Source: Parvularia atlantis (lineage: Eukaryota; Opisthokonta; Rotosphaerida). From it: a stretch of 24,133 nt of DNA. Location of the stretch: assembly GCA_943704415.1 (NCBI GenBank), contig CALSCO010000255.1, positions 1 through 24,133 on the forward strand. The letters run 5' to 3'. A program made the translations under genes and the position numbers. Below, in pieces: positions 62 to 24,133 of this stretch. Below the pieces are notes generated by a model. The model was not told the DNA's origin. It worked only from the letters and a program-made list of their open reading frames with translations, and ran no database searches. How positions within the stretch are numbered: position 1 is the first letter of the stretch; the number at the start of each line of letters is the position of its first letter.

Positions 62-1990
62 ATGGCAGAGCTCTGGCTCCTCGCGCTCGTCGGCGCCCCG
101 GCCTCGTTCCTCTCGGGCTTTGCCGCGGCCGCGATGTCGTTCACGGCGTGGTGCGCGCGCGCTCTCACGCACTGCACTGCACTGCACTGCACTGCACTGC
201 ACTACACGCACGCACGCTCGCTCACACTGCGCACCGCAGGAACCTGATCGTGCCGCTCATGTTCGCCGCGTTCGGGCTGCCCGTCTTCCAGGCGCTGTTC
301 ATCAGCGTCATGCTCGACGTCTGCAACGGCATCACCCTCACGCTCGTCTACGGCCTCAGCGGCAAGGTCGACTTCCGCTACGGCATCACCTTTGGCGCCT
401 ACGCCGCCGTCATCGGCGTGTCCATCGCCATCGCCGCCTCCAACTACATCGTCGAGAAGCAGGTGTGCCCGCTGGTCGTGCTCTGCTGGCCGTTCTGTAC
501 TCGTCACCCACTAGCACTCACGCACGCACCCACGCACGCACCCACGCGCCCGCACTCACGAGCACGCCCTGCCACGCACTCACGCGACCGCACCTCCGCA
601 GGAAAAGCTCAAGACGGCGTCGTCCTTCGTGCCGTTGCTCATCGCTATCCAGTTCCTCGTCCGGTGCGCGCGCACACCCCCTGCCGCGAACCAGCTCACA
701 CCGCGCACCACACAGCGGTCTGCTCGCCCTGCGCAACAAGCGCCGCACCGAAAAGCTCCAGCGCGAGCAGGCCGCTGCGTACGGCATCGGCGGCGACGAG
801 AGCGCCGAGGCCGCCGCCGCCGCCGAGGACGACGGGCTGACCAAGGGCTACGTCGCCGTCGACCACCCGGCCGACTCCTCGCGTGACCTGGACCTGACCG
901 ATGCAGCCACCGGGGTCGAGGAGAAGGTGCGCGCGTACGGCGCCTGCTCGGTCGCCGTACTCACGCTGCGTTTAGGTCTCTGTGCCGCGCACGCGCTTCC
1001 AGGCGTCACCGAACGAGCGCACGCCCCTCGTGTACTCGTCCTCGCCCAGCCTCAACGCCGAGGTGGCCATGGCCAGTGCCGCCGAGGCCGGCAAGGTCGG
1101 CGCCGTTAACGACGCGGACGACTACATCGACGACGAGCAGGTGCACACACCTCGCTCAGACGCGCACACAGCCTCACACGCGCGCACACAAACGTCGCAG
1201 AACGTCAACCAGGTCTCGTCCTGGCGCTTCTGGCTGTACCTGTTCACGGAGCGCTTCACGCCCGACGAGGACATCCTGCACCAGCCGCTCAAGTACACGG
1301 GCGTGCGCATCGGTGCGCCTGCCCGTGCCTCGTCCGCCGTGCAGCAGCGCCTGCTCACCCCGCGCGTGCGCGCCAGCCGTCACGCTCCTTGTCTTCGCCA
1401 TCCTCGGCGGCGTCGCGGGGCTGCTGTACGCCGGCGGCGGCATGTTTTACGCCAACATCATTGTCAACGCGTGGGGCGCCAAGGCACGAGTGGGCGCATG
1501 CAAAGGACGCGTCGCTGACCGAGTGCGCACCGCGCAGATCCGCACCGCCGCTGGCACGGGTTGCTTCATCATGACGATGGTCATGGTCATGATCGCGTTT
1601 ACGTTCATCGGCAACGAGGGCATGGACGACATTAACAACCTGTACCACGTGCTCGTCACCGTGCCCTTTGGCGTGCTCGTGCGTCTGTGCAGCGCGCCGG
1701 CCGCGGTCGCTGCTGACACGGACGTACGCGCGCGCGGTCGCCAGGGGTCGCTCGTCGGCGCGCGCCTCGCCCTGCGCATCTCCGACATGGTCATGTTCTT
1801 TGTCATCTTCGGCGTGTGCGTGGCCCCCTCGCGCGCCTGCCGCCTCGTCTGCCAACGCGCTCGCTCGACGCACAGCTCCATGACGCTCTTCATCTACATT
1901 GTCGTGCAGAACCGCGTGCTGTCCGACTCGGGCTCCGACTCGTCCGTGCCGACCGAGGTCGCGCTCGACGTGCTCCGGCGGTGGTGGTGA
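62..1990 (+). CDS. TauE/SafE (TSUP) family membrane transporter, ten exons, 433 aa
   Basis: The proposed exons are 62-150, 240-462, 602-663, 716-926, 976-1140, 1201-1312, 1377-1489, 1538-1678, 1745-1815 and 1876-1990. They sum to 1302 nt, close in frame, and all use GT-AG junctions. The protein has two hydrophobic halves of the kind seen in the TSUP family, which exports sulfite, sulfonates or other small organic anions across a membrane. Each half has a glycine-rich helix (LGGVAGLLYAGGGMF in the second) followed by helices ending near G..VD/D and GSLVGARLALR. Between the halves lies a charged cytoplasmic loop of about 150 residues with acidic and Ala-rich stretches. The start at 62 gives a hydrophobic first segment. 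Exon 5 could instead begin at 1003, and the 48-nt intron 1490-1537 has no stop and keeps the frame. The substrate is unknown. The family call is fairly firm; some exon edges are not. Confidence 0.75.
170..203 (+). repeat. CACTG pentanucleotide microsatellite in intron 1
   Basis: About six to seven head-to-tail copies of CACTG (ACTGC) lie inside the first intron (151-239) of the transporter gene. The intron runs on into CACGCACGC-type repeats. A similar CACGCACGCACC-type array lies in intron 2 at about 519-550. The arrays are not coding in the proposed model. Confidence 0.85.
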
Positions 1991-2161
1991 GCTCGTCGCG
2001 CCCCCACCCTCCACCCCTCGCACGTGCTACTATCAACCCCAAAAACGCTTCCTGTCCCTGTTGCACGCGGACTGTGCATGACCCAACTGGCATAGTACAC
2101 GAATCATATCGACGGCAGCAGCATCACGAGGCTCAGCAGGCTGCGCGTACGCCGTGTGGCG

Positions 2162-3832
2162 TCAGTGCTCGTCGCGCGCACATCGCGGCATCGCGACGCA
2201 CCGCTCGGCCACGGCGGCGTGCAGCGGCAGCAGCGATATCTGTGACGGCACCGCCCACGGCGTCGTCAAGTATGTGCCCTGATGGAACCTGCTCGCGCCG
2301 CGTCAGCCCCGTGCGCCTCGCCGCTGGCACCTGCTCCGACGCACTGCCGCGCAATGTCCACCAGGATCGACACGGCCGACGTGCTGTCGAGCGTCCACGA
2401 CGCGTACGGCGAGCCCGAGATGTCGCTTTCGGGTCGGTACAGGTGCCGCGACAGGGTGAACTGCGCCAGCACGTGTTTGCTACACGCGAACAGGCGAGAG
2501 TGGCGAGAGGCGGGCCACACCTGCAGCGCCTGCACCGTCTCCGAGTCGAACCACCGCGCAGGATCTTGCGCGCCGTTGTCGGTCTGGAACAGCAGGCCCG
2601 AGCAGAGCGGCTGCAGCCCCGGCTCGAACGACGTCTGTGTGTGTGCGTGAGCCGGGACGACCACGCCGAGTGCGTGCGCGCTTGTCGCACCCGGTGCGTC
2701 ACCACAAACTGGCGCGGCGAGCGGCCGTTTGCGTCGCCACCCTGTTCGCCGCCCAGGCGCGCGTCGATCAGATGCAAGCCCTGGTGCACGACCAGCTCGA
2801 GCCACGACACAGACGCGACCCACGGACCCAGAAAGTGAGAGCGCTTCTGCTCCGGCGCTGCGTGTGCGGCCGCAGGTAAGCCGAACTGCGCGCGTCGTCA
2901 ACAGGGTGCAGTGCACCGCTATGCGACAGCAGCCGCGCGCTCTCGGTCGGCGGCGTCGCGCGCATGCTGCTCGTCGTCGTGTGGCACACAGTGAGCCAGT
3001 CTGCGGCGCCGCCCCGTCAAAGCACAGCGGCCGCGACTGCCTCACGCCAGCGCACCCGCGAGCTCGCCGGCTGTGTACGTGCCCAGCTTGGTGATGACCA
3101 CATGCCAGCCAAACGACACCAGCGCGGCAATCGCGAGCGTGTGCCGCCAGATCCGGTTGAGGAAGCTGCGCGCGACGGCGACCGCGTGGGTCAAAGGCCG
3201 GTGGCTGCGAAGCGAGCACGCGCGCGCGCGCGTGTGCACACACCGGTGGCGCAGTGACAGTGCCGTGCTCTGCTCGCCGTCCTGGTTCAGCGGCGCCACG
3301 TCCACCTCGAGCACCTCGCCGCGGTCGTCCGTCCAGCACGAGACCAGCCAGCCACTGCGCCGCGCCCGTACGCATGAGCGCACGAAGCAAGGCGTGCGTG
3401 TTCACGCACGTCTCCTCTGACACGGCGTAGGCCACATGCAGCACACGCTCGAGCGAGGCCGGCGGCGGACACAGCGTCGTGAGGTCGAGGCTCGGCGCGA
3501 GCGAGATGCGTCCGCCAGGCTTCGGCCGGCCAAGGGTGAAGGCGGGCGCGTGCAGCGAGCTCTGGCGCATGCTCTTGCCCAGCTGCAGCGACACCTTGCC
3601 TTCAACGGTGTTGCTGTGCTGCGGCTGCGTGCGCGCGAGTGATCACGACGCGCGCATCCTTCCAACCAGGCACGCACCACCCGCGACCGGCACCGGTTGT
3701 AGACCGCAAACGACAGCTCGCGCAGCTGTGCGTTGTACTGCCCGCGGAACAGGCACGGCACGAGCACCGTCTCGGCGCGCACGAGCTGGTAGTGCACGGG
3801 GTACTGCACGTACGGCGGCGCCGGCTGGCCCG

Positions 3833-3883
<51 letters not shown>

Positions 3884-6800
3884 GCGCGCTGTCGTCCACA
3901 AACTTCTTCATCTGCACGAAAATCTGGCACAGGCCCACGAGTTCGCCCATGCTCTCGCACGGGCTGACGCAGTACACGACGACGTGGTCTGCGCACGTCG
4001 CGTGCGCACAAATCGCCGTGAGTGCACGCGCAGAGGCCAGGCGCGGCCACACGCACGACTCTCCGGCAGCTTGCGCACGTAGCTCTTGATCAACTGCGCC
4101 AGCGCCTGCGCCTGCTCGCGGAACGCCGAGACGCCGTTGCTATGATTCGTGCGCATGGCGTCGGGCAGCGGCGTCGTCTCGGCCGACGCGGTCGCCGACA
4201 CGGGGGTGCTGCTGGCCATGGCCGATGCCGACGCAAGCGCGGCCAGCGAGCCCGCGTTGAACGACGTGAACGCCGACGTCGTCCCTGCACTCAACGGCAC
4301 CTGCGCGGCCGCGGCTCAGACGTCCCCGTCCACGCAGTGCACGCTTGCACGCACCTGCACGAAGCCGTCAATGAAAATGGTGTCGCCCACGCGCGCCAAC
4401 GAGCTCGTGTCGACGGGCTGGTGCCGCCCGAGCTTGCACACCTGAACACGCCCGCGCAAGCAAATGTCAGCAGAGCGTGCACCCGCGGAGCCGGCGCCAC
4501 CTGGTAGTAGCTCGTCAGGTCGCGGAAGAACGACGTCGCCGCGCGCAGCAGGGGCAGGCTCTGCGGCACCAACACAACGTAGTGCACGTCCTTCGGCCCC
4601 GACAGCGGCTCGAGCGACATGCGGTCCCAAAAGTGCAGGATGCTGCGCCGCGGCGGCGGCATCAGTGGTGCATCGGCGAGCAGCGCCAGCACCGCCGGCG
4701 ACGCACGAAGGGTTCGCCTGAATCCACTGGTTCTCGTGGCCCATCACGATCTGCGGCGGCGCCATGCGGTGCACGCCTGTGTTGGTCAGCTGGCCCCTTT
4801 TCTTCCGGCTGAACCGACGATTCTTCTCGTACACGCCGGACGACTCAATGTCTGCGACGGCCACGCGCACCAGTCAGAGCGCGCCGCAGCCTGACGCAGC
4901 CACGCGCACCCGTGAGCTCGCTCAGCTGCTGCAGCGTCAACGGACCGCGCACGCCGCGCAGCGCCCCCGCAGCGCCCAGGGCGGCCGGCGCTGCGTCAAG
5001 CTGCAGCGTGCGCAGCACGTGCCGCAGCAAGTCCTGCAGCTGCATGAGCGTGCGCAGCGACTGGCCCGACGCTGGCAGCTGCATCACGCGGAGCACTGGC
5101 GAGGCGCCGGCATCAGCACCACCGCTCCCGAGCAGCGGGGCAAGAGCACAACGCACGCTTTCGCACGCTCGCGTCGCTGCCAAAGCCCGTGTGCGCGGGC
5201 TCGGCGAGCTTGATCTGGTGCATCAGCTGCAGCATGCGCAGGCGCTGCAGAGGCGCCGACGGCGGCTCGAGCAGGCCAAAGGGGTACGCGACAATCGACT
5301 GGTGCTTGAGCATAAAGACAATCTCAAGCTGCGCGCCGCCCCAGCGTCATGTGATGCGCCGCCGGGCACGAGCGACCTCCGCGCACCAGCGCTCGCCGCT
5401 CCGTCAGCCCCAGCGACAGCGGGATGTCCGTGCCCATGCCGTCCGCCGTCGGTGCAATCGGCCAGGCGTACGGGCCCGGCAGATACGGGTAGTCGGTCGC
5501 AGGGTCTAAGAGAGCAGCGAATGTGAGGGGGGTGCACGCGGCGAGGGCTTGTGCGCGAACCGTGCGACGGCGAGAGGGTGCTGCGGACCCACTGATCGCG
5601 CACGACGCCCTTGCCCGCGTCCTGCAGTGCGCACCCAAGCGCTTGCAGCTGCAGCGTAGCGGGTGACGCGCTGTTAGACTGTGCGCGCGCGCACACAACA
5701 TCGCACGGCGCGCACCAGCGACGCGATCGTTGCGCAAACGTCCGCCGTCGGTCGGATGGCCACGCGCGTGCGGCTGCCGTTGTGCGGCGACAACGCCGAG
5801 CCGGGCGAGACGCGCGTGCGGCGAGCGGCACCCGAGGCGTGCCAGGTCGGCAGCTCAGCGGCCTGCGACGGCGTCAACACCGGCCGTGCGCACACGCGCG
5901 GTTCGTGCACCTGCGCCGATGCCTGCTGCTGTGCTTGAGCGAGCGACTTGCGCAGCCGGCGCAGCTCCGGGTCGGCGCCCGGCCCGTCCTCGCCGTCGCT
6001 GTCGTCGCCGTTGCCGTCGGCCTCGCTGTCGCTGCTGCTCTCGCCACTGTCGCTGCTGCTGCTGGCACTGCTGCTACCACTGCTACCGCTGCTGCTGCAG
6101 TTGTCGCCGCTGTGCGTGCCGTTGCTGCCGGAGCCTGCCTGCTGCGGCGTGCTCGCCATCGACATCATCTCGGCGCTCGACAGGCCGCTCGTGGGGCCGA
6201 TGGCAGCTGTGTCGGCCGTGTACGCTAGGCGCGGCTTCTTGTTTGCCGTGAACGAGGCCGTGACGTCCGGCTGGAAGGGGTACTTGCCAAGGGCATTGGT
6301 GCTCGACGGCAGGGCCGCGGCTGCACGCGTCTGTCTGTCGGGGCTCTCGGCCAGCCGTTGTTGATGCTGCTCGTCGCCGTGCTGTGGCTCACGACCGTGC
6401 TGCGGCGACTGCATCGCGCCCAGGCCAAGCCCCTCCGCGAGGCCCATCGGCAGCACCGGCGCAGACGGCGCGCCCGGAACGTCCCACGCCAGGAAGCCTG
6501 CGTCCACGTCCATGCCGTCGCTCCCGAGTGGCAGGCCGATGTCTATGCCGAGCACGGCGAGCGAGCCGTCGCCGTCGTGCGCCTCGCTCTTGATGACGCT
6601 GCCCGTGGCAGCGGCGACATCGAGTGCCCCAGAAGAGGCGCTGCCGCCCTCGTCCTGCTGTGCGGTGCCCTCCGACATCGCGTGCTCGCCGCCGTCATGA
6701 GCGCCCGCCGCCTGCCCTGCGCCGTCGCTCTCGTTGTCCGCCGATGGCTGCAGGGGTGGGCGCGTCAGCAAGGCGCATGCTGGCTGACGCGCACGGTCGC

Positions 6801-9321
6801 AGACCTTCTTCTGCTCGAAAAAGTACAGCAGGTCGTTGAAGTCGTAGCTCTCCTCGCCGTCGACGTTGCCCGCGCCTTCGTCGCCCGCGAGCGCACTGCG
6901 CGCACCAGTGCACGTCAGCTGGTCGGTCGCACGTGCGCGGCAGAGAGCAACGCACGTGGGCGGGCGGATCGCCGTGCTGGCTGACGGCGCGTGCGAGCCG
7001 TAGCTCGAGTCGTGCGCGATAGCAGCGCCGTTCCCGCTTCGGCTGAGCGTGGTGGACGCGAGGGCAGCACCGCTACCGCCGGTCGTGCTGCCCGCACCGC
7101 GCATGCCAGCCGCGACCAGCTGCGCATACGACGTGCTCGATGGTGCCGAGTACCTGTTTGCAATGACGTGAGCGCACACGGAACGACCACGCGAAAAAAA
7201 AAACGCACGTCGGCGGCGACTCGACCGGCGGCATGCCGGACGTGTCGGCGTGGCGCACCATCAGGTCTGCACGGCTCCAGATGCCGACGGTGTTGCTGCG
7301 TGTGTCGCGCTGGTGCTCAGCCGCCTGCGCGCATAGACGACGACCGGCACGACGCACTAGGGCGGCCGCTGCAGCTCGGCCCGCAGTGCCTCGGCCAGCT
7401 GCTGCGACACGTTGCGCATGAGCAGCGCGTCGATCGGCTGCAGCAGCTGGTCCATGGGCGCCGACGTGGGCAAAAACACGCTGCGCCCGGCGCCCGGTCT
7501 CAATCGCACGCCTGCAACGGCGGCGACACAAGCAGTCGCACCTAAACACCGGCACGACCATCTCGGTCTGGTTGACGCTGCACACGACTGAGGCCGGGAA
7601 GAGCTCTGGGACGACGTCGGCGCCCGTGTCGTCGCTCGGCGAGGGCGTCGCCATGGCTTCTGCCACCATAGTGCTTGAGCACGCGCGGGACGGTCGAGCA
7701 AGGGCACGGCGCACCGCGCGCAAAGACACCGGGCGTGGTGGGCGAGGCGACCTCGATGCGCTCGGCAGGCCGGACGACGTTGGTCCAGAGCGACCACATG
7801 CTGTGCGCGGCAAGGGCGGGCGCGTTGCGCAGGACGCGGCCCTCCATTCCGACGGGGCCGACGAGCACTGTCAAACCGTGAGCGCTGCATGTCGCGCAAG
7901 CCCGCGGCGCACCCGGCACGTCGCTGAGCTCGTTGAGCGTAGCGGCGCTGAGCGGCAGCGCTGTGCGCGCTTTGACGTGGTGCAAGCGCTTGGCCCAGAG
8001 CAGGTACAGGCCAAACTGGCACAGGAGCGTCTCGCCGGTGAAGGTGAACGCGGGCTTGCACGCGGGCACGCTGCGCGGCGGGCCTTGGTGACCACGAGCG
8101 CGCGGGCGATCCCTGGCGGGCCGCGCGGCGCACCAGGCCGCGGCGTCGATGGCGGTGGCGGCGGTGCCCTCGGGGAAGACACAGTACGGGCCGAGCGGGA
8201 CAAAGCCGCGGGCGACGAGGTGGCGCAGCACGGCGGCGCGGACGGCCTCGAGGAAGCACTCGTGGGCGCGGTCGCGTTCGGCTGTGACGGTGCCCTTGCC
8301 GACCGCTGTCGGTGCGCGGTGAGACGGCGCGCGCGTGTGGTGGGTGCGTGTGCGCGCGACGCACGGCGCAGGCTGGCGACGACGGCAGCGGGCAGGGCGC
8401 GCAGCAGGTCGGGCGCGCCTGCAGACGCCGCGGTGGCCGGCGCAGACGACGCTGCGGCGGCGGGCGGGTCCGGGGCGAGGGCGACGCCGGGCAGCGCGGC
8501 GGGCGCGCGAAAGACCCACAGCTCCCAGACGTGCTCGTGGACGGCGTGCTGCGGTGGCGGAGGAGGCTGCGCTGGCGGCGGCGGGACCTCGAGTGGCGCG
8601 GGCGAGGTGAAGGCGCTGCTGATGCCCGGTGTGGCCGTGGGGGTCGCAGTGGGCGTGAGCGCTGGTGCTGCTGGTGCTGCTGCTGGTGCTGGTGCTGGTG
8701 CTGGTGCTGCTAGTGCTGGTGCTGCTAGTGCTGGTGCTGGTGCTGCTGCTACTGCTGGTGCTGGTGCTGCTGGTGCTACCGCCGCCGCCGTCGCCGCCAC
8801 TGCCGGCGTGGTCACCACCGGCACAGCCGCGTCGAGAGACACCGCGCGGTGGGTCCAGGTGCAGCACACGCCGTGGCGCGCGAGCTCGACAAAGGCGCCG
8901 AGGACGGGGTTGTGGCGCTCGAGGCCCTTAGGGCGACCGGGTGGCGGGCGGCGTCAGCGGGGCGCGCGGGGGCCCCGACCACGGCGCACCGCGACCGACG
9001 CGCCGCCGAGGACGTGCGCGGCGAGGGCGCGGTGCGCGGCGCTGCCGGGTGCGGCCTCGGTCCACTCGTACGCGGCCCACTCGACCTCGCTGAGCCCCGT
9101 CTGTTTTGCGGGTGTGGGCGGCGTGTGAGCGGGTGTGTGTGGTGTGCGGCGTGTGTGTGGTGTGCGGCGTGTGTGCGGCGTGTGTGGTGTGCGGCGTGTG
9201 TGCGGCGTGTGCGTGTGGTGTGCGGCTTGTGCGGCGGGCGACGCACGCAGGCCGACACGTTGCTCAGCTGCTGATCGTCCATGGGTGCGACGCGATAGTG
9301 GTCTTGACGGGTCCCGCTCAT
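2162..9321 (-). CDS. MED13: Mediator complex subunit 13 (MED13), about 28 exons, about 1900 aa
   Basis: MED13 links the CDK8 kinase module to core Mediator in the nucleus and helps repress or tune RNA polymerase II transcription. The N-terminal domain is read from exons near 9.3-7.4 kb: NPVLGAFVELARHGVCCTW, then an Ala/Pro linker, ELWVFR, and VLVGPVGMEGRVL. A long acidic, Ser-rich low-complexity middle (about 6.76-5.67 kb) follows. The C-terminal domain is unmistakable: PPQIVMGHENQW, ILHFWDRMSLEPLSGPKDV, YVVLVPQSLPLL, FFRDL, CKLGRHQP, ELSFAVYNRCR, RVLHVAYAVSEETGWLVSCW, PLCSGLLFQTD, and a final SLLPLHAAV close to the stop (2162-2164). The size falls between yeast (about 1420 aa) and human (about 2170 aa). 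The first exon is 9259-9321, and a second in-frame Met lies at 9282. Introns are GT-AG wherever resolved. The gene ends 171 bp from the convergent transporter gene. The call is firm; individual exon edges in the low-complexity middle are less so. Confidence 0.88.
3834..3881 (-). repeat. CAG/CTG tract encoding 16 glutamines in MED13
   Basis: Sixteen CAG/CAA codons on the minus strand (a CTG array with one TTG on the plus strand) encode a polyglutamine run. It follows KKFVDDSAR in the MED13 C-terminal region and precedes a Pro/Gln-rich stretch. MED13 and other Mediator subunits often carry such runs. The nearly pure array is likely to vary in length. Confidence 0.9.
8660..8777 (-). repeat. Ala/Pro hexamer array in MED13 N-terminal linker
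   Basis: About twenty copies of GCTGGT/GCTGCT-like units on the plus strand read on the coding strand as alternating Ala and Pro codons (APAPALAAPA type). It is a flexible linker inside the MED13 N-terminal domain, between the conserved CCTWTHR segment and ELWVFR. It is a likely site of length variation. Confidence 0.8.
9120..9236 (-). repeat. Irregular GTGTGTGCGGC minisatellite in MED13 intron 1
   Basis: The first MED13 intron (9101-9258, 158 nt) is mostly an irregular tandem array of 10-20 bp GTGTGCGGC/GTGTGTGGT units. It starts GTGTCGG and ends AACAG on the coding strand. The units are too short and irregular, and lack unique spacers, to be a CRISPR array. In other frames they give the artificial Cys/Val/Arg or His/Thr repeats. 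Confidence 0.85.
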
Positions 9322-9363: not shown

Positions 9364-14889
<5,526 letters not shown>

Positions 14890-15056
14890 TTGGCGCGCGG
14901 GCAGACGGCGAAGGGAAGCGGCGGTTGTGGCGCGCGAACCGAGTCGACACAAAAGCGCGCCAACCGCGCCCATTGGCCGTGACGTCACCCGTGGCGCGAC
15001 CAACGGGCATCGAGTCGCCTGTGGCCCGAAGCCTTGCTCGTACATGTGCACACCTC
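14890..15056. other. 167-bp gap upstream of SMC3
   Basis: This gap lies between the CorA stop and the SMC3 start, both on the minus strand, so it must hold the CorA 3' end and the SMC3 promoter. On the plus strand it contains ATTGGCCGTGACGTCACC around 14972-14989. That includes a CCAAT-type element on the minus strand (ATTGG on the plus strand) and a palindromic TGACGTCA, the classic CRE/ATF core. Both are plausible promoter elements for SMC3. Their use is inferred. Confidence 0.45.
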
Positions 15057-16410
15057 TCACAGCAGCTTGTACCACCGGAACAGGATCACCAGGTACGCCC
15101 CGAGCAGCGCCTGCAGCAGCACAAAGATCGCAAAAGGCCACGCGCTGGACGTGTACTCGGCCCGCCCCGGGAAGTAGACGTTCATCCCGCCAATCCCCGC
15201 CAGCGCGTTGACCGGCAGGCCCACCGTCGCCACGGTCGCAAACACCTTCATCGACCGGTTGTTGTCCTTGTCGCGCTCGGCCACGTCAAGGCTGATCTTG
15301 GCCAGGTAGTTGGCCTGCAGCTGGTTGAGCGAGTCGCGCGCGAGCGCCACCGTGCGCAGCAGGTCGTTGAGCCGGTCGGTCACGTCGCGCACGTGCGAAT
15401 GGCTGCGCTCGGTCAGCACCGGGAACCCGCTCGCACCCACGCCCCTGAGCGCGCGCGACGCGTGAGCGCGAGTTCGGTCGCGGCTGCTCACGAGCCCGCA
15501 CCGGATCACGTCGCGCTTGCTCAGCAGCAGCCGCTGCAGCAGGCTCAGCCGCGTGCGCGTGGACGACATGCGCAGCAACACGTCGTCTTTGTCGGCCGTG
15601 CCTTGCAACGCGCGCACGCCGTGAGCGAGCAATGCCGCGGACGGCAGCAACAAAGCGCAAGCGCACCGAGCACCAGCGCGAGCTCGTGCAGCGACTCGAC
15701 ATCGTCCTCCGTACCCTGGATCGCGGGCGTCCACAGGCGCAGGTTCTCGAGCAGGACAAGGTACATGACGCGCTCGGGGCTGAGGGCCCCCGCGTTGCCG
15801 CGACGCACGGTCTCCATCAGGTGGCGCAGCGGGCTGGCCGGCTCGTGGTGCAGCGTGACCAGTGCCTGCGCCGGGAGGCGAGGCTGAGTGCACGGCACGG
15901 ATGCCCGCGGCGCGCAGCGCACCTTGGCAAAGATCAGCAGCGTCACAAACCCGGCGTCGTCCTGCTCCCCCTGCCCGATGCTGAGGCGCAGGCACACGAC
16001 CATGTACTGCTCGTGGATCTCGCAGCGCTCGCTGAACTGCGCCTCTGTCACGGCAGCGGCGGTGCCCTCGGTGATGCCCATGAGCTGGCGGATGTGCGCG
16101 CACACGCGCGCGTGAGTGTGCGCGATGTGTGTGCGCGCGCCACGTCACTCCGCTCGCGCAGCACCCAATCGCCCCAGCTCCACACGCGCCGCGCACGCAC
16201 CCGCGCCAGCAGCCGCAGGTCCTCCCACGTCGGGCCCTCCACGTCGAGCCAGAAGCCCTGGTCACGCTCGAGCAGTGACCGCGCGATGTTGAGGTTCCAC
16301 TCGTCGAAGCAGAACACGTCCTGCAGCCGCGGCCGCGCCGACGGTCGCACATCGTTGCGCAGCAGGTGGTACTTGCCGCTCGCCGCAAGAAAGCCGCCCC
16401 GTCCCGCCAT
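15057..16410 (-). CDS. CorA-type Mg2+ channel/transporter, five exons, 352 aa
   Basis: The exons on the minus strand are 16201-16410, 15923-16084, 15667-15865, 15502-15601 and 15057-15444. They total 1059 nt, stay in frame and use GT-AG introns of 57-116 nt. CorA proteins form pentameric channels for Mg2+ and similar divalent ions. The cytosolic part includes DVFCFDEWN, an acidic EGTEDDVE segment and a long helical region (VRDVTDRLNDLLRTVALARD). It is followed by the diagnostic end: helix FATVATVGLPVNALAGIG, the GMN motif in GGMNVYFPG, then a second helix (FAIFVLLQALLGAYLVILF) and a basic RWYKLL tail. The GMN selectivity motif is intact. No targeting peptide is clear, so whether it sits in the plasma membrane, vacuole or mitochondrion is open. 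The start at 16410 is the first Met in the frame after the upstream gap. Confidence 0.9.
16093..16142. repeat. Alternating purine-pyrimidine (CG/TG) tract in CorA intron 1
   Basis: Almost uninterrupted alternating GTGCGCGC/ACACGCGC sequence fills part of the first CorA intron (16085-16200). Such tracts can adopt Z-DNA. A similar tract lies at about 3218-3243 in a MED13 intron. The structure is inferred from base order only. Confidence 0.5.
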
Positions 16411-16523: not shown

Positions 16524-18497
16524 TCAGCGCACGACGGAGAAGTTGCCGAAGCGCTTTGCGGCCGCGTCAAACAGCGCCGGCCGGTCCTCGGGGTGCGCGA
16601 TGTCGATCAGCGCGCGCGCACGCTGCCGCAGATTCAGGCCAAACAGGTCCACCCTGCCGTACTCGGTCACGACCCAGTGCACATGCGCGCTGCACAGTCC
16701 GTCACGTCAGCGCGCCTGGCCGGCCGTTCGCGCCACACGCCCGCGCGCGCACCGTGTCGTCACCACACCGGCACCGGGCGCGAGCGTCGGCACGATCTTG
16801 GGCTTGCTCTTGCCGCTGCGCGACTGCACGGCGATGATCGGCTTGCCGCCGTCCGACAGCGCGGCGCCGCGCATAAAGTCCTAGCCGGACGGCCTCTGTG
16901 TCAGCACACCTGCACAGCTGCACATGCGTGCGCACGTGCCATCTGCCCGCCGATGCCTGAGATCACGCGCGTCCCGGCCGAGTCGGCGCACACCTGGCCC
17001 GTCAGGTCGATCTCCTGCGTGCGCACGCAAACCGCGCATCAGCTGTGTCCGCCAGGCGCGCGCCAGCACGCCAGCACTATGGCCGAGTTGATCGCCACGA
17101 CGCGCGGGTTCTGCTTGATCACGGCCGGATCGTTCACAAAGTGTGACGGCGCCAGGTGCACGAGCGGGTTGTCGTCCACAAAGTCGTACAGCTCCTGCGA
17201 GCCTGTCGCGTGCGTCAGCATTAGCAAAAGAACACGCTCCGTACAGCGCGCGCCCACCGGCCAGGAACGAAGCCACGATGTGGTTTGGCGCAATCTTTTT
17301 AAACCGGTTGGTGATCACGCCGCGCCGCACGAGGTCGATCACCCCGTTGGCAAACATCTCCGTGTGGATGCCCAGGTCCTGCACGCGCAGGCGTCAGGCC
17401 GGCCACGACAGAGCAACAGCACACCTTGTGGAACTTGAGCGCGCCCAGCACGGCGTCGGGTATCTGCCCAATGCCCATCTGGAGCGTTGACCCGTCCTCA
17501 ATCAGCGACGCGATGTGCTCGCCGATCTTGGCCACGTCCGGCGGCACCGTGCCTGCGGGCAGCACCGGTAGCGGCTCGGTGTGCTCCACGAGGTAGTCGA
17601 GGTTGCTGACGTGGATCAGGCCGTCGCCGTGCGTGCGCGGCATCTTCTCGTTCACCTGTGCGCGCGAGTGCATGTCGGTCGCGGCAGCGCTGCCGCAAAC
17701 GTATCCGTGCACCTGCGCGATCACAACGTGCGCATGCTGCACCGCGTCCAGCGTGATGTCGATCGACGTGCCCAGCGAGCAGAAGCCGTGCTTGTCGGGC
17801 GGCGACACCTGCACCAGCGCGACGTCGATCGGCATCCTGCTGCGCCGTCAGCGCGAACGAGCACACGGTGCACGGCACACGCACCGTCCATTGCGGAACA
17901 GCAGCGCGATCTCTGACAGGAAGATCGGCACAAAGTCCGACCCGCCGCTCTGCACGGCCTCGCGCTGACGCACGCGACCGCGTCAGCCACCGCATGAGAC
18001 GCGCGGGCGCCGCACCTGCGACGGGCCGACGAAGAAGTTGGTCGTGTGGAAGTTGCGCTGGTACTTGGCGTCCGAGTACGGGCACGCGCCCTCGACGTGG
18101 ATGTGGCACACCTGGCCCCGAGCGCCGCACCCGTCAGCGCATGAGTCATACGCTGGCCGTCGCGCAGCGCGCCTCCACATCCTCGACCGCATGCGCCGCG
18201 TCCGCGTCGGCCAGGCGCGTCATGCACTCGACCAAGTGCCGCGGGTACGCCGACGTCGAGTGTACAAACACGCGCTGATGGCTCTTGATCGCCTCGCGGA
18301 CGGCCTCGAAACCGCTGACCACGCGCGGCGTGCGCGGCACTGCGACGGCGCGCGTCAGAACGCGCAGGGCACAGGCAACGGCGCGCACCTCGGCCCGCGA
18401 GCTGTGAGCGCAGCAGCGGCAGCGACGACGACAGCGACCCGGCCACGGGCGGCACCGACGTCGTCTGGTACGCGCGGCGAGCGAGCGCGGCGAGCAT
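16524..18497 (-). CDS. Acetyl-CoA hydrolase / 4-hydroxybutyrate CoA-transferase family enzyme, about 11 exons, about 490 aa
   Basis: This family moves CoA between acetyl-CoA and acids such as succinate or 4-hydroxybutyrate, or hydrolyses it, usually in mitochondria (yeast Ach1 type). Seen in order are a basic, acid-free start MLAALARRAYQTTS that looks like a mitochondrial presequence, FVHSTSAYP, NFHTTNFFVGPSQ, VALVQVSPPDKHGFCSLG, and NEKMPRTHGDG. These are followed by LQMGIGQIPDAVL, LGIHTEMFANGV, INSAI joined to EIDLTGQVCADSAGTRVISGIGGQ, DFMRGAALSDGGKPI, HVHWVVTEYG, and AHPEDRP near the end. The Glu in EIDLTGQV sits where the family's catalytic glutamate is found. The intron 16881-16939 must begin with GC to restore DFMRGA, and 18112-18172 may be another GC-AG intron. 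An alternative GT site at 18151 would add seven residues. Substrate preference cannot be read from the sequence. Confidence 0.9.
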
Positions 18498-18865
18498 GAT
18501 GACCGGCGCGGAGATGACTCAAATCGCCGGCATTAGTGCGGCGCACACGCAGAGCCGCGCAATGGCAGATGCCAGATCGCGAAACGGGTCCAGTTCGTGG
18601 TTGCTGCACTTTCCCGATCCTCGCTCCACGTGCGCTGCGCCCCAGAGCGCTTCATGGCCGACATGAGCCGCGAGTGGCTTCCCAGAGACGACCACGACCG
18701 CGACCGCGACCGCGGCTTCAAGTTGTGGCTCTGCTGGTGGCTGTTGTCATCTCTCGTCATCGTCTTACCTCACCCGCTTACCTCAGCCATCTCGGCCTAC
18801 GTCAGCAACCGCCTAGTCCCCTCTTAAACCGTGCCCCACCCCCTCTATTGTCTGTCTTCCGTCGC
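18498..18865. other. 368-bp gap between the CoA-transferase start and the ROCO stop
   Basis: The left third should hold the promoter of the CoA-transferase gene. A direct GACCGC-type repeat lies near 18698-18714. The right third (18772-18865) is the outer part of the left inverted-repeat arm described below. No TATA box and no RNA gene are seen. Confidence 0.5.
18654..18827 (+). CDS. Candidate small membrane protein, 57 aa
   Basis: An ATG-started frame on the plus strand begins MADMSREWLPRDD, continues with a DRDRDR charged stretch and then one strongly hydrophobic segment (LWLCWWLLSSLVIVL), and stops at 18825-18827. It is the only plus-strand frame in this gap with a membrane-segment look. 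Its 3' half lies inside the left inverted-repeat arm, and chance is a real alternative. No family was recognised. It is listed only as a candidate. Confidence 0.15.
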   Translation: MADMSREWLPRDDHDRDRDRGFKLWLCWWLLSSLVIVLPHPLTSAISAYVSNRLVPS

Positions 18866-18888
18866 TTACGAACCACGAAGTCTTACAC
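18772..18888 (+). repeat. Left arm of a roughly 117-bp inverted repeat flanking the ROCO gene
   Basis: This arm matches the reverse complement of 24001 to about 24117 with only a few substitutions and small indels; the inner 36 bp are identical. It covers the last codons of the ROCO gene (reading VRLRGS then TAA on the minus strand) plus about 94 bp of 3' flank. Similarity stops abruptly at 18888/24001, on the gene side. Confidence 0.9.
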
Positions 18889-21800
18889 CAGGCATCGAGT
18901 TCGCGAGGTCGGTGCGGCGTGCGTCCACGAAGGCCTGTCGCACCTCCTCGTCCGTCTTGCCCGCGTTATACGCCATCCGCAGGAACGCGATCGCCTCGTC
19001 CGCAGGCGTGTGGACGCTGTGCATGCGGTTGCGCCACTCGTCCGCGTTCACGCCCAGGTGGCCCGCCACCGCCGTCCAGTCGCGGCCCAGCTTCTCACCC
19101 ACCTGGGTGAGCCATTGGTTGCGTGCGGCGGGGCCCATGACCGCGAGGGCCATCGGCGGTGCTCGCGGGTAGGTCGACCAGGCCAGCACGGCAATATCGA
19201 TGCCTTGCTGAGGGTACTCGGCCACCTCGATCTCGCAGTTGTTCCATCGGCAGACGAGGTCTCGGTGCTCCTTGCACAGCCACATGCACGTGCCGGATGG
19301 GCCGGACGGGCAGCCGTCGCGCACGACTGGCGTGCGGAAAAGGCCGGAGGTTTCCAGATAGCCGTGCTGCGGCGCAAGGGGGGTGTAAGGCACAACAAAC
19401 CGGCACAGCGCACGCACCAGAGGTTTGTCCAGCAGCGTCTGTGCGACCTTGAGCGCGTCGTCGCGGAGGCGCTTTGGTTGTATGTTTTGCAATTGTACAT
19501 AGCGATCGTCGAGTGGCGCCCACGTGTCCATCTCGTCAAGGGACCTTGCAGCACTGTAAAGGAGAGCGCTCAGTGCAGGGGCCATCTGCCCAAAGCTGAC
19601 AGATGGCACAGCCAAGTGCAGATCGCGAAGCACATTTGTCGTGGCCTTCAGAGGCACAGCAAGGCTCTGAATGTCGTCTTGCACAGTCATCAAGACCGGA
19701 TGAATGCCAGGAAGGGGGTGGCACAGCGGTTGCTCGGCGCCAAGTTGGAACTCGCACAGTGGCAGGAGAAAGATCTTGGGGTTGTTCGTTGAGACCGTTG
19801 CCCAACCGCGCGGGTCGTCGGACGGGACGGGCAGCAGGAGAAACGGGAAGCTGCACTCCAGTAGGCTGTTGGCAAGTTGCGCATGAAAGCTCCTGGCCTT
19901 GTCGATTGCACGTAGAATGTCATTGCTGAACGGCAGCATTGTCACAGAAACTGAGTCCGAGTGCGGCATCAGATGGGCGCCACGAGTGAGTAGCCGACTT
20001 GGCTGGAACGAGCCATTGTGGCTCCGGCACAGAGTCTGATGGCCTGATGCCGTGACGAGGTTTTGCTCAGCCACGTAGCCCAGGTCCTGCAGGCAGTCGG
20101 GCCGACACTCGGGGCACTCGAGCAGATCGGTGCGCTGCACACCGGGGTCCAGCGACAGACAGTCGGTCACGACGGCCGCAATCTCGTCAAGCAGGCGCAT
20201 CGCCGTCAGCGCGTTGCTGCATCGCGTGCGCATCTCCAGCCGACCGCCAACACCGTCTGGGGCCGTGTGCAGCAGTAGCAGGCCCTCAGCGACGTGATTC
20301 TTGTCGTGCAGTCGCGCGTAGTTGCGCCCGAGATCCTGCTCGTAAATGCGCTTGCGCAGCCGGTTGATCACGCGTGGCACTAAGTGCGACAGCAGCACGT
20401 CCAGGTCGACAATGCGATGGAACTCGGACAGGGTAGCGGTTGTCTTGTGCCAGTCGTGCAGCTGCTTGGCCGGCTCGCCCGCGGGCAGCAAAGCGGGAAA
20501 GACGACGACGGCGTGCCCGTTGCGGGTCGCAGGGAAGCACACGTCAAAGTGCACCATGAGGTCAAGAAGCCTGTCACTGACCGGTGCTGCTTTGTTGATG
20601 CGCCAAATCTTGTGGAGGCGATCGCGACGGATGATGCCGTCGCTGAAATCATACGTAAGGCCGTCCGCTCGTACTTGCACGCGGCCGCTGTGGTCGTGCG
20701 GGTCGGACGGGCGATGCAGTTCGCCGAGTGTGTGCTGCGTGAGGAATGTAGGCGACAGCACGATGATTTCGGTCACGCTAGGCTGGCAGACGAGCCGACC
20801 CCACGCGTCCAGCTGCCGCAAGGCACGATCGACCATGTCGCGAGGCAGCTTGACCAGGTCGCAGACCTCCTCGAACGTCATGATGGGCAGCTGAGAGCGT
20901 CGGGTGGTCTCGTCGTCGAGCGCCTTCTCGATGATGAGGAACTCGCTCGGCACCAGCAAGCCATCACCGGCGAGGTGACTGGCGCATCGGTTAATGGTGC
21001 TCTGCACGAGGTCGAGACCGTCGAAGTTGCAGGTAGCCGAGTCAGGGACGCAGCTGACCTCAACAATATCATCCTCCCGTAGCCACTTCGTGTCCAGTTT
21101 AGCCTCCTTGGCCGTCTCAAGCACAAACTGGCGTCGATCGGCAATGGAGTCCTCGTTCCGCAATGCCGCAGGCAGTTGATCCACGTGCGTGCCCACGACA
21201 ATGATCGCAGCGCGGGTGTAGGACAGCCTGTCGTCGCGGTCGAGATGCACACGCAGTGACCGCATCCAGAACGCAAGCGCATTCCACGCCCGGTCCTGCC
21301 TGCTTAGCCGCGAAATGTCCCATTGGATGTCGCAATGCTTGGTCACGTCCCACATAACGACGTAGAGCGCTCGGTTGCTCAGGAAGTGGTGATGCGAGTT
21401 GTAGTACTCGTGCTGGCCGGCAAAGTCCCACGCTGACATCTGGACATTTGAGCCAGGCGAGGTGAAGCTGCGGATGTCGATGCCATGCGTGGCCTTGTTG
21501 TCAGTGGCAAACTGCAGACGTCGAAAAAACGCGTCGCTGGAAGCGGCGGGGGCTGACATGGCGATCCAGTCGCTTGTCAGTGGCAGAATCGCAGCCCATT
21601 TGACCAACATGTCGGGGATCGTCATCATCATCCACTTGAGACGAAAGTCTGCCACTCGGAAGAGAATGATCTGACCGTCCATTTGTCGCATAACCCAATT
21701 GTTGTTTAATACCCGCCGTGCGATGCAAATGCCCCCGATCTTCTCAATAATGCTCAGCAGATTTCCTTGAATTTCGGCCGTGCATGGACGGCCCTGGTAC

Positions 21801-23524
21801 TCCACGTCCAGGCGCAGCGGACCCAGAATGTTCAGCAGCGTCGTCTTGCCCGTGCCCTCGTAGCCGACGACGAGCATTTTGACGCGGCGGTTGGGGTTGT
21901 CGATGTCGGGATTGGTGAGAAGGTAATTGATGAGCGATTGGACTCCTCCCTGCAGGACGTTGGCGGGAATCGGCACAAGCAGACCAGCAGCCGGAAGCGG
22001 AACGCTGTCGATGCTGGAGGCACAAACGAATGAGTGACTTCATTAATGACTACCATCACCACGCACACAAGAGTCTTGAGCGTCAAAGAACGGGACTTAT
22101 TGAAGGTAGTGATGAGAGATTCCGCCAGCGCCTTGGCGCCCTTGACACCGATTCCGTTGTCTGCATGCAGCCAGAAGGGGTCACCAGTCACACGCTGCAC
22201 GCCACATGCTCTGCACACGGCACCACGCACTGTTAAGGTTCAGCGACTTGAGCATCTTGTTGGTCTTGAGCGCATCCGCCAGCGCTACAGCACCCTCAGC
22301 GCCAATTTCGTTGGCTGCATGCAGCGAAATGGGGTCAGCATCCACTGCACGACAAATGCACCTCATACAGCACCACGTACCACCGAGGATCAGGAAGACC
22401 AGCGCCATGTTAGACTTCAGTGAGTCGGCCAGCGCCTTGGCGCCCTCATCACCAATGCTGTTCCCTGCATGCAGCCATAAGGGGTCAGCACGCAAGCTGC
22501 ACGCCACGTGCACTGCACGCGACACTACGCACGATAAAGGTCCAGCGACGTGAGCGTTGTGTTGTCCTTGAGCACGCCCGCTAGCGCCTTAGCGCCCTGA
22601 GCACCAATACTGTTTTCTAGAAAGAGCAGGTTGAGCAAGTCATTACTCGGCGCAATTTCGAGCACCATGTACCTTGGAGGTTCATCCGTGTGAGTGTCTT
22701 GTTGCTTTCGAGCGTGCTTGCCAGCGCTTCGGCACCGACATTCCCAATGCTGTTCCCTGAGAGCAGCTGTGGGTGAGCACTGAAAGCACCCAAGCGCGTT
22801 ACGTACTATAGATGTTCAGCGAGGCGAGCGTCGTGTTGCTCTTAAGCGCAGACGCCAGTTTCATGGTGCCCTCTGTTCCGATTTTGTTTTCTGTAAAATC
22901 AGGTGGTGTCAGTGTGCACCACTCAGCGTTTGGTACCAAGCACCATGGAAGTCCAGCGATGTGAGGGTTGTGTTGTTCTTGAGGGCGTCGGCCAGTGCCT
23001 CGGCACCCTCAGCGCCAATGTTGTTGTCTGGATACAGCCAGGTCACGTTGGGCTGACCTTTTCCAAGGCGTAACGTACGTCCGAGGCCCAGATAGGTAAT
23101 CGCTGAGTTTTCCTTGAGCGTGCCCGCCAGCGCCTTGGCGCCCTCATCACCAATGCCGTTCACTGCATGCAGCCAGAAGAGGTCAGCACGCAAGCTGCAC
23201 GCCACGTGCACTGCACGCGACACTACGCACGATAAAGGTTCAGCGAGGTGAGCGTTGTGTTGTCCTTGAGCACGCCCGCTAGCGCCTTGGCGCCCACATC
23301 CCCGATGCTGTTGCCTGGACATCGCCACGTCGCGCTGGCGAGTTCAGCACCGCACCAACGAACAAGCTTCGCGCACCGTGAAGGTCCAGCGAGGTGAGCG
23401 CCGTGTTGGTTCTGAGCGCGTCGGCCAGTCCGTGCACATGCTGCGGCGTGAGACGGTGCGCCTGCAACTCCTTCACGCTGTTGCCGCGCACGGCTGCGAC
23501 GGCCGCTTCGCCCTCCGCCTGCAT
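18866..23524 (-). CDS. LRR-Roc-COR-Death domain protein (ROCO family, NLR-like), 11 exons, 1331 aa
   Basis: The exons are 23377-23524, eight 84-nt exons (23231-23314, 23079-23162, 22944-23027, 22807-22890, 22673-22756, 22533-22616, 22381-22464, 22231-22314), then 22069-22160 and 18866-21949. They total 3996 nt and are in frame. Residues about 1-304 are ribonuclease-inhibitor-type leucine-rich repeats (NxIGxxGAxALAxxLKxN). The Roc GTPase follows, with P-loop GYEGTGKT (about 333-340), DFAGQ (about 479-483) and THVD (about 558-561). COR comes next, with a Cys cluster CPECRPDC, a FLLPLCE segment and a C-terminal Death-like domain (QWLTQVGEKLGRDWTAVAGHLGVNADEW, about 1248-1320, to ARRTDLAN). ROCO proteins are GTP-regulated scaffolds, and the LRR-plus-Death layout recalls innate-immunity or cell-death sensors; that role is inferred. 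About 100 extra residues separate the P-loop from the next GTPase motif. The start is the first Met of the LRR frame; a longer N-terminus is possible. Confidence 0.87.
22429..22597 (-). repeat. LRR exon-intron-exon duplicated segment, copy A
   Basis: This segment matches 23127-23295 at about 162 of 169 positions. It spans the end of one LRR exon, the whole 68-nt intron 22465-22532 and part of the next LRR exon. The intron differs from its partner (23163-23230) at only two sites. Confidence 0.93.
23127..23295 (-). repeat. LRR exon-intron-exon duplicated segment, copy B
   Basis: Partner of 22429-22597 at a constant offset of 698 bp. Because the intron is conserved as well as the coding parts, common descent by recent duplication or gene conversion explains the match better than selection on the protein. 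Confidence 0.93.
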
Positions 23525-24000
23525 GCACGTGGTCACCTTCTCGTGTGACGGGTAAACTGCTCTGGCATGGGGCCCGAATGTGGTTTCTGGCACATGGCGT
23601 CATTGCCCGCATCTCATTTCCGTCGGCTAAACTTTCGCGCCATCGCTCTGTGCCACTTTCAAACGCTGGCTTCCCGCGCGCGTCTCGTTTGGGCAACTGA
23701 CGGCGACTGTGCCACGCCGCGTGCGCCCAGCAAGAAAAGTTCACGCATGAGTGCCTGCCTCTCGCGCACCCTACATTGAGCAGTCACAAGGCGGATTGTG
23801 GTGTCAAGGCCAACGCGCCAATTCTGAGTGGGCTGGTCGCACTCAAGGGCCATCGCCGCCTGACCGATCTGCGCACGGTGAGTATCCGATCACCAGTTCC
23901 TGAGCGAATGCATCTTCCCTTCCAGACGGTTTACGTTACTGGCACGAGCGCACCGCCTCCTCCCCTTCCGCGCGCGTGGGCGACGACGAGGCAGTAGGCA
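23525..24000. other. Upstream region of the ROCO gene
   Basis: This 476-bp stretch lies between the ROCO start and the right inverted-repeat arm, and must hold the ROCO promoter if the start at 23524 is right. No TATA box is obvious. The only coding-like signal is the plus-strand spliced frame listed separately. Confidence 0.4.
23731..23997 (+). CDS. Possible 3' exons of an unrecognised plus-strand gene
   Basis: A frame open from 23701 could begin as an exon after CCCAG at 23726-23730, with an ACTGAC branch-like site upstream. It reads QEKFTHECLPLAHPT and later ANAPILSGLVALKGHRRL, then reaches a good 5' splice site GTGAGTAT. An intron of 48 nt (23878-23925) ends in a pyrimidine tract and CAG. 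Continuing in phase 0 the frame ends at TAG 23995-23997. The 48-nt segment is itself open, so splicing is not forced. In another phase the last exon would run into VRLRGS-stop inside the right repeat arm. No family or 5' exons were found, so this may be a gene remnant or chance. Confidence 0.2.
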   Translation, partial: QEKFTHECLPLAHPTLSSHKADCGVKANAPILSGLVALKGHRRLTDLRTVSIRSPVPERMHLPFQTVYVTGTSAPPPPLPRAWATTRQ

Positions 24001-24117
24001 GTGTAAGACTTCGTGGTTCGTAAGCGACGGAAGACACAACACAGGGGGGTGGGGCACGGTTTAAGAGGGGACTGGGCGGTGGGTGACGTAGGCCGAGATG
24101 GCTGAGGTAAGCGGGGT
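24001..24117 (-). repeat. Right arm of the inverted repeat flanking the ROCO gene
   Basis: This is the reverse complement of 18772-18888. On the plus strand it begins GTGTAAGACTTCGTGGTTCG and then TAA, the same codons that end the ROCO gene on the other strand. What lies just inside it (before 24001) does not resemble ROCO coding sequence. The distance between the inner edges is about 5.1 kb. Confidence 0.9.
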
Positions 24118-24133
24118 CGGGGCTGACGTAGGC
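24083..24133 (+). repeat. Direct repeat at the window edge
   Basis: TGACGTAGGC occurs at 24083-24092 and again at 24124-24133 with a roughly 41-bp period, ending exactly at the window boundary. The left arm has one matching GCCTACGTCA at about 18796-18805. It may be the start of a longer tandem array that the window cuts off. Confidence 0.45.

Follow-up and report, generated by a model that had tools for sequence, protein, structure and literature searches.

The window analysed here, the whole of contig C58 (24,133 nucleotides; the assembly, small and GC-rich, holds 16.25 Mb in 616 contigs), carries on its minus strand a gene that joins ribonuclease-inhibitor-type (RI-type) leucine-rich repeats (LRRs), a Roc GTPase, a COR domain, a linker and a C-terminal Death domain. 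The product is probably an intracellular sensor of the Roco class, built like the nucleotide-binding LRR receptors (NLRs), with the LRRs as sensor, Roc-COR as switch and the Death domain as output. The gene and its parts lie as follows.

18866..23524, minus strand: whole gene, 11 exons, 1353 amino acids (RI-type LRRs, Roc, COR, linker, Death); spliced model with Pfam LRR_6, Roc and COR-A
23377..23524, minus strand: exon 1, with the start codon and the beginning of the LRR array (spliced model)
22231..23314, minus strand: exons 2-9, eight 84-nt phase-1 exons with one 28-residue LRR each (spliced model; LRR_6 E=2.3e-51)
22067..22160, minus strand: exon 10, last and degenerate LRR, joined to the Roc exon (spliced model)
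20963..21895, minus strand: Roc GTPase, with approximate limits (Pfam Roc E=3.6e-10, strongest over 21517-21329; alignment of the P-loop piece with LRRK2 Roc)
21865-21839, 21427-21413 and 21190-21179, minus strand: P-loop, DFAGQ and THVD motifs of Roc (motif reading)
21497..21820, minus strand: 108-residue insertion between P-loop helix and switch I (alignment with LRRK2 Roc)
20486..20950, minus strand: COR-A domain (Pfam COR-A E=1.9e-8 in the open reading frame, ORF; E=2.0e-8 in the genome search)
18887..19126, minus strand: Death domain, residues 1268-1347 (phmmer, Pfam, profile, structure model, reversed control)

The gene starts at an ATG at 23524 and stops at a TAA at 18866-18868, and removal of ten GT-AG introns of 50-70 nt each leaves 1353 codons without an internal stop. 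An earlier note on this DNA had the same coordinates, strand, start and stop; its length of 1331 residues has to be corrected. Its statement that exons and GTPase motifs are intact holds, as the frame is open, the splice sites are GT-AG, and P-loop, DFAGQ and THVD are all present. From intact frame, splice sites and motifs a live gene is a plausible reading, weakened because the 3′ end has been rewritten by a repeat resembling a long terminal repeat (LTR) and because the base composition is atypical, as described below.

Exon 11 carries Roc, COR-A and the long C-terminal part. In the ORF that runs from Roc to Death, the Pfam Roc match exceeds its cut-off and the motifs GYEGTGKTT (P-loop), DFAGQ and THVD are found in Roc; the nearest solved sequence is the Roc domain of LRRK2 (E=8.3e-10). 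Between P-loop helix and switch I the protein has 108 residues where LRRK2 has about 11, and this insertion matches neither a Pfam family nor a PDB sequence at E<=10. A PH domain within the insertion was considered and dropped, both searches being empty. COR-A matches over its full profile in the ORF at 34.8 bits, slightly below the cut-off of 35.3, and passes it in the genome search at 37.5 bits. Two features of the Roco family, a Roc domain with P-loop, G3 and G4 motifs and a COR domain directly after it, are present. Roco proteins are proposed to be GTP-dependent dimers in passages of one paper (PMC4104024), and a GTP-dependent dimer switch may operate in the window protein as well.

At the C-terminus, the Pfam Death profile alone gives a weak match (16.4 bits, cut-off 22.6; E=0.0098) that spans profile positions 8-81 of 86. 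Searching the last 104 residues against the PDB with phmmer returned the Death domain of PIDD at E=0.0011, and five of the six matches at E<=10 were Death domains; the same residues reversed, as a control, returned none. A profile that includes the PIDD piece reaches RIPK1 at 5.9e-5, and 19 of its 22 matches are Death domains, two being PIDD by construction; PIDD, CRADD and RIPK1 are the Death proteins that give the sequence support. A single-sequence AlphaFold2 model (mean pLDDT 80), the structure prediction that the earlier note had called for, has Death domains as its top structural matches at modest scores, with ankyrin Death domains among the best. By sequence similarity we place the segment in the Death superfamily, in keeping with the Death-like C-terminus that had been proposed, and the order LRR, Roc, COR, Death is borne out by Pfam LRR_6, Roc and COR-A together with these tests.

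By analogy with Roco dimers and with Death-like domains as adaptors, we suggest the following working order. A horseshoe of about nine RI-type LRRs would bind a ligand, or a host protein that it guards; this would alter the GTP state or the dimer state of the Roc-COR switch; this change would free or cluster the Death domain; and the Death domain would recruit Death-fold partners or build a signalling platform. A sensor of this kind might serve in defence or in cell fate.

The LRR part matches Pfam LRR_6 over nine stretches, and exons 2-9 each encode exactly one RI-type repeat of 28 residues. A search pattern for 84-nt phase-1 LRR exons, composed after these exons had been seen, finds eight of them in the window; 20 shuffles of the window and of a second Roc locus described below (L072) yield none. 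Within the array, two stretches are nearly identical.

23121..23272, minus strand: tract nearly identical to 22423-22574, comprising the last half of exon 2, intron 2 and the first half of exon 3
22423..22574, minus strand: partner tract, in exons 7-8 and intron 7

Inside the paired tract there are 9 differences over 152 nt, and in the outer exon halves 27 over 84 nt. Introns 2 and 7 are 97% identical, exceeding their flanking exons (87% and 73%), and introns 3 and 8, the next pair at the same offset, are not among the intron pairs above 60% identity. Gene conversion of about one repeat unit, with its ends inside exons, would fit this pattern best. Because the 84-nt phase-1 exons of the sensor are interchangeable, the array can be altered by exon duplication and by gene conversion with the frame kept. 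Further RI-type LRR genes on contigs C424 (L073), C559 (L074) and C137 (L075) have one to three 84-nt phase-1 LRR exons each, and the C137 stretch also holds a frame that looks TPR-like by eye. With overlapping copies of the window gene, and those of repeat loci, set aside, the pattern gave none at the other LRR genes scanned (L050 and L067, L051 and L068, L061, L065, L066).

The earlier note had asked for a count of paralogs, and the window gene proves not to be the sole Roc gene; the idea of a single Roco gene in this genome was dropped once a 1219-residue Roc frame had been found on contig C128.

L072 (G000:C128:4000-13999) 3171-6827, plus strand: second Roc gene, with Roc and a C-terminal class-3 lipase (Pfam)
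L072 about 1530-3170: LRR exons upstream of the Roc-lipase frame (motifs by eye, and pattern)

This frame is one of 43 Roc matches in the genome. Its Roc scores 26.5 bits over the whole ORF (8.2e-6), below the cut-off of 27, and 27.5 bits in the N-terminal part (3.9e-6), above it; its C-terminus matches Lipase_3 at E=8.7e-20 and has the motif GHSLGGA. Each of ten LRR motifs upstream is followed by a phase-1 GT donor, placed in the repeat as in the window gene, and for six of them an AG lies exactly 84 nt ahead of that donor (background 0.040 for AG, 0.053 for GT); a stricter, blind 84-nt pattern finds four exons there. Because similar LRR exons stand upstream of a Roc gene that ends in a lipase, the two genes suggest a small receptor set with swappable outputs, and the strongest pointer to the C-terminus as a possible output slot is that the second gene has a lipase where the window gene has Death. 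A decayed relative may lie on contig C310 (L023 1501-1614), where 38 residues, interrupted by a TAG, are 47% identical to window residues 1192-1229 (43 residues at 42% in the protein search); the stretch is either the remnant of another Roco-like gene or a cysteine-rich module common to both. The protein search of the genome returned the window gene and this piece alone, and the COR-A search the window gene as its only match. Twelve of the 43 Roc matches had loci, seven of which were scanned for motifs and six read as frames; the six look like Ras or Rab types, the one at L034 behind a long N-terminal part. The genome may hold further Roc-COR genes.

Several observations weigh against a sensor. 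The genome search with PF00531, made for the count of other Death-fold proteins proposed in the earlier note, found no partner Death protein, with zero matches, and was blind even to the Death domain of the window gene itself. Positive selection on the LRRs was considered and no sign of it was seen: dN (nonsynonymous) is below dS (synonymous divergence) in all four exon pairs tested and in the one joined pair tested, and the variable positions are scattered over the repeat. The 84-nt LRR exon is found, singly or a few at a time, at L054, L062, L063 and L064 too, so the form is general in this genome and does not mark receptors. No COR was detected in the C128 gene, by Pfam on the ORF or in the genome search, and its product aligns poorly with the window protein (best E 0.092 over 34 residues); the ten LRR motifs upstream were moreover picked by eye after the frames had been read, and such picking can favour the fit. 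Finally, the Roc genes seen to have an output domain number two, plus one 38-residue relic, with no large receptor expansion.

In an unlikely alternative, the product would be a Roco protein that serves housekeeping or cytoskeletal signalling, the kind of role proposed for the Roco proteins of Dictyostelium, and its Death domain would be a mere protein-binding module, as in ankyrins. The ankyrin Death domains among the structural matches fit this, whereas the best match by sequence is PIDD, which we take to be a death-signalling protein. Roles in chemotaxis and the cytoskeleton are reported for Roco proteins in passages of PMC4104024, yet a modular LRR array with a near-identical tract, and a relative that ends in a lipase, suit a sensor better.

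Two further alternatives concern the origin and state of the locus, which is flanked by copies of one repeat.

18745..18887, plus strand: LTR-like repeat copy 3′ of the gene (TGTCATC...CTTACA)
24002..24133, minus strand: second, inverted repeat copy, 5′ of the gene, with the contig ending inside it
18866..18886, minus strand: last six codons (VRLRGS) and stop, within the LTR-like repeat

The two inverted copies are 93% identical over 115 nt, and two parts of them taken separately 96% and 87%. The family comprises at least 24 matching pieces, query included, on at least 16 contigs, several close to contig ends, and typical copies start with TGTCATC and finish with CTTACA. Reading the flanks by eye at 14 loci (L003-L011, L013-L017) revealed 4-bp target-site duplications at seven (L004, L007, L010, L011, L015, L016 and L017), of which L004, L007 and L015 have one flanking repeat in common and possibly stem from one event; the other seven had no clear duplication. 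The copy at L008 directly adjoins a chromodomain (E=4.1e-10) and the C-terminal domain of an integrase (E=6.8e-8), and we therefore take the family to be the LTRs of a Ty3-type element that bears a chromodomain. L008 (contig C574) also has an OrfB/IS605-like frame at about 911-1522 on the plus strand (E=0.00031, below its cut-off), presumably of TnpB or Fanzor type. That frame ends in VRLRGS inside the repeat, as the window gene does; since the last six codons and stop of the window gene lie in the repeat and VRLRGS recurs at L008, the gene seems to have had its original 3′ end trimmed or replaced by the repeat, immediately past the Death domain. No matching target-site duplication borders the left copy, whose flanks read CTGT and CCAG. 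The 5′ flank of the left copy, CTGT (18741-18744), and the 3′ flank of the right copy, CTGC (23998-24001), agree in three of four bases, which weakly hints that the sequence between the copies has been inverted.

We consider it improbable that the gene, or what is left of it, came in recently by horizontal transfer from a donor of lower GC, such as an animal or another protist, and was kept at an LTR-rich spot; the Death domain would have arrived with it and may lack a partner here. LTR-like copies on both flanks are compatible with this, as is base composition: GC content is 0.60 in the gene and 0.69 in the remainder of the window, and GC content at third codon positions (GC3) is 0.752 in the gene, 0.877 in the C128 ORF and 0.911-0.991 in fragments from eight other genes. 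Roc-COR proteins with Death domains are moreover reported in Trichoplax, in passages of PMC4104024. Against it stand the 84-nt phase-1 LRR exons at other LRR loci of this genome and the decayed relative on C310. The splice donors point both ways: three in the window gene read GTACGT, a form not among the ten C128 donors, whereas the two genes are alike in that GTGCG or GTACG makes up eight of the ten window donors, and GTGCG eight of the ten in C128. Methylation decay as a cause of the low GC3 was also considered and found weak, with CpG observed/expected at 1.05 against 1.25 and TpG at 1.37 against 1.32.

That the locus is decaying or misassembled, its 3′ end cut by an LTR insertion and the contig joined through a repeat, we regard as less likely still: the stop codon inside the repeat, the unmatched flanks of the left copy and the contig end inside the right one would fit, but 1353 codons are open, splice sites are consistent, GTPase motifs are present, the Death match covers nearly all of its profile, and the repeat family of both flanks occurs on at least 16 contigs of this assembly, which places the gene in a genome that has the repeat.

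As host we favour a fungus or close relative on the fungal side of the opisthokonts, on three lines of evidence. For EF2 (L049, contig C387) the yeast-labelled entry 1n0u reaches 589 bits and 9rvu 558, and sequences that we take, from their entry codes, to be Drosophila and vertebrate reach 523 and 479-511, the vertebrate scores being lowered by a longer EF2 in the compared region; four Zn2Cys6 matches in the assembly lie above the cut-off; and EF-1A (L042, contig C464) aligns with human EF-1A through WFKGWKKLDKKGAEVKG, a stretch that we take to be an opisthokont mark. EF-1A does not separate animals from yeast (790 vs 777 bits), and SMC3 pieces from the window are not decisive, at 315, 291 and 220 bits against chains presumed to be human, S. 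pombe and S. cerevisiae. The non-animal host that the earlier note had supposed is thus supported by genes on other contigs, none of which is among those that share the C58 repeat; C58 is tied to them by taking the assembly as one organism and by the similar GC3 of its own neighbouring genes (SMC3 0.911, CorA 0.950, acetyl-CoA hydrolase 0.925). A fragment at L038 (contig C351), which from its motifs we take to be a TypA/BipA-like GTPase, is unexpected in a fungus-like nuclear genome and could hint at contamination. For such a host, the lineage-specific sensor with a death-signalling output that had been proposed is plausible. An exact 17-base 18S motif had zero matches; as possible hosts, Fonticula and Caulochytrium were considered. 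The neighbours in the window are these.

15060-15887, minus strand: CorA-like transporter
17299-17847, minus strand: acetyl-CoA hydrolase/transferase N-terminal domain
about 9600-15000, minus strand: SMC3

Within the window, no Rfam match exceeded its gathering score and no tRNA was found. A search for relatives of the Roc-to-Death ORF in genome and viral contig collections gave 18 and 2 pattern matches, none confirmed, with six short peptide patterns that reach close relatives only. PADLOC gave no match at E<=0.01, PHROGs one at E=0.069 with the last 104 residues alone, and NCBIfam two weak matches far under the cut-off.

Known proteins share parts of this layout. PIDD1, the best Death match by sequence, also has LRRs and a Death domain, and lacks a Roc-COR switch. 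DAPK1 has a protein kinase and ankyrin repeats before Roc-COR-Death, whereas Pfam scans of the window protein find neither kinase nor ankyrin, with LRR families in their place. LRRK proteins have kinase and WD40 domains after COR, whereas the 389 residues after the window COR-A have no Pfam match at E<=10. NLRs of animals, plants and fungi share the logic of repeat sensor, nucleotide switch and Death-fold or enzymatic output; the switch here is Roc-COR and not NACHT or NB-ARC, neither of which is among the Pfam matches of the Roc-to-Death ORF or the LRR part. Animal Roco proteins (the Trichoplax set, and DAPK1) likewise combine Roc-COR with a Death domain; the window gene differs in its fungal-side host and its Roc insertion of about 100 residues, the Trichoplax proteins being compared by description only, as Roc-COR surrounded by LRR, TPR, CARD and Death domains in passages of two papers (PMC4104024; PMC11378527). 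LRR, Roc-COR and Death thus co-occur in animal Roco proteins, and what is new here is a variant in an unexpected lineage.

Brown algal LRR-ROCO genes, described as candidate immune receptors in passages of PMC11378527, also place LRRs before Roc and encode one LRR per symmetric exon; theirs are 72-bp phase-2 exons in 9-47 genes per species, in contrast to 84-nt phase-1 exons, RI-type repeats, a Death domain and few genes here. An LRR-ROCO GTPase of Acanthamoeba, again a unicellular eukaryote but an amoebozoan, is listed among pattern-recognition candidates, in a passage of PMC4053784 that names no Death domain. Death-like domains are described as adaptors in portions of two papers in which Roco appears in reference lists alone (PMC8195603; PMC7159879). 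Literature searches on Roco-Death proteins in protists, choanoflagellates, unicellular forms, sea urchins and fungi, Death domains in Thecamonas, exon shuffling in LRR-ROCO genes and death folds in fungal NLRs found no description of a fungal-side Roco with a Death domain, a weak absence as coverage is thin for subscription journals.

We suggest that the window gene bears on where Death-domain receptors are found. Tentatively, and with some doubt, an early-diverging fungus or relative may keep a Roco-based counterpart of the NLRs, with exchangeable 84-nt LRR exons, gene conversion, and Death or lipase outputs on one class of GTPase. If the sensor reading is true, Death-domain signalling and LRR receptors would reach beyond the animals within the opisthokonts, to a group in which Roco genes have been reported as lacking. 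Genes of LRR-Roc-COR-Death and LRR-Roc-lipase type on the fungal side would shift two statements as worded in passages of their sources: that fungi and yeasts are without Roco genes (PMC4104024, of 2014) and that fungal NLRs are without LRRs (PMC5485727). Roco genes with one LRR per exon would gain a case beside the brown algae, with a visible tract that hints at how such arrays may change, and the origin of Death-domain signalling would become testable outside animals.

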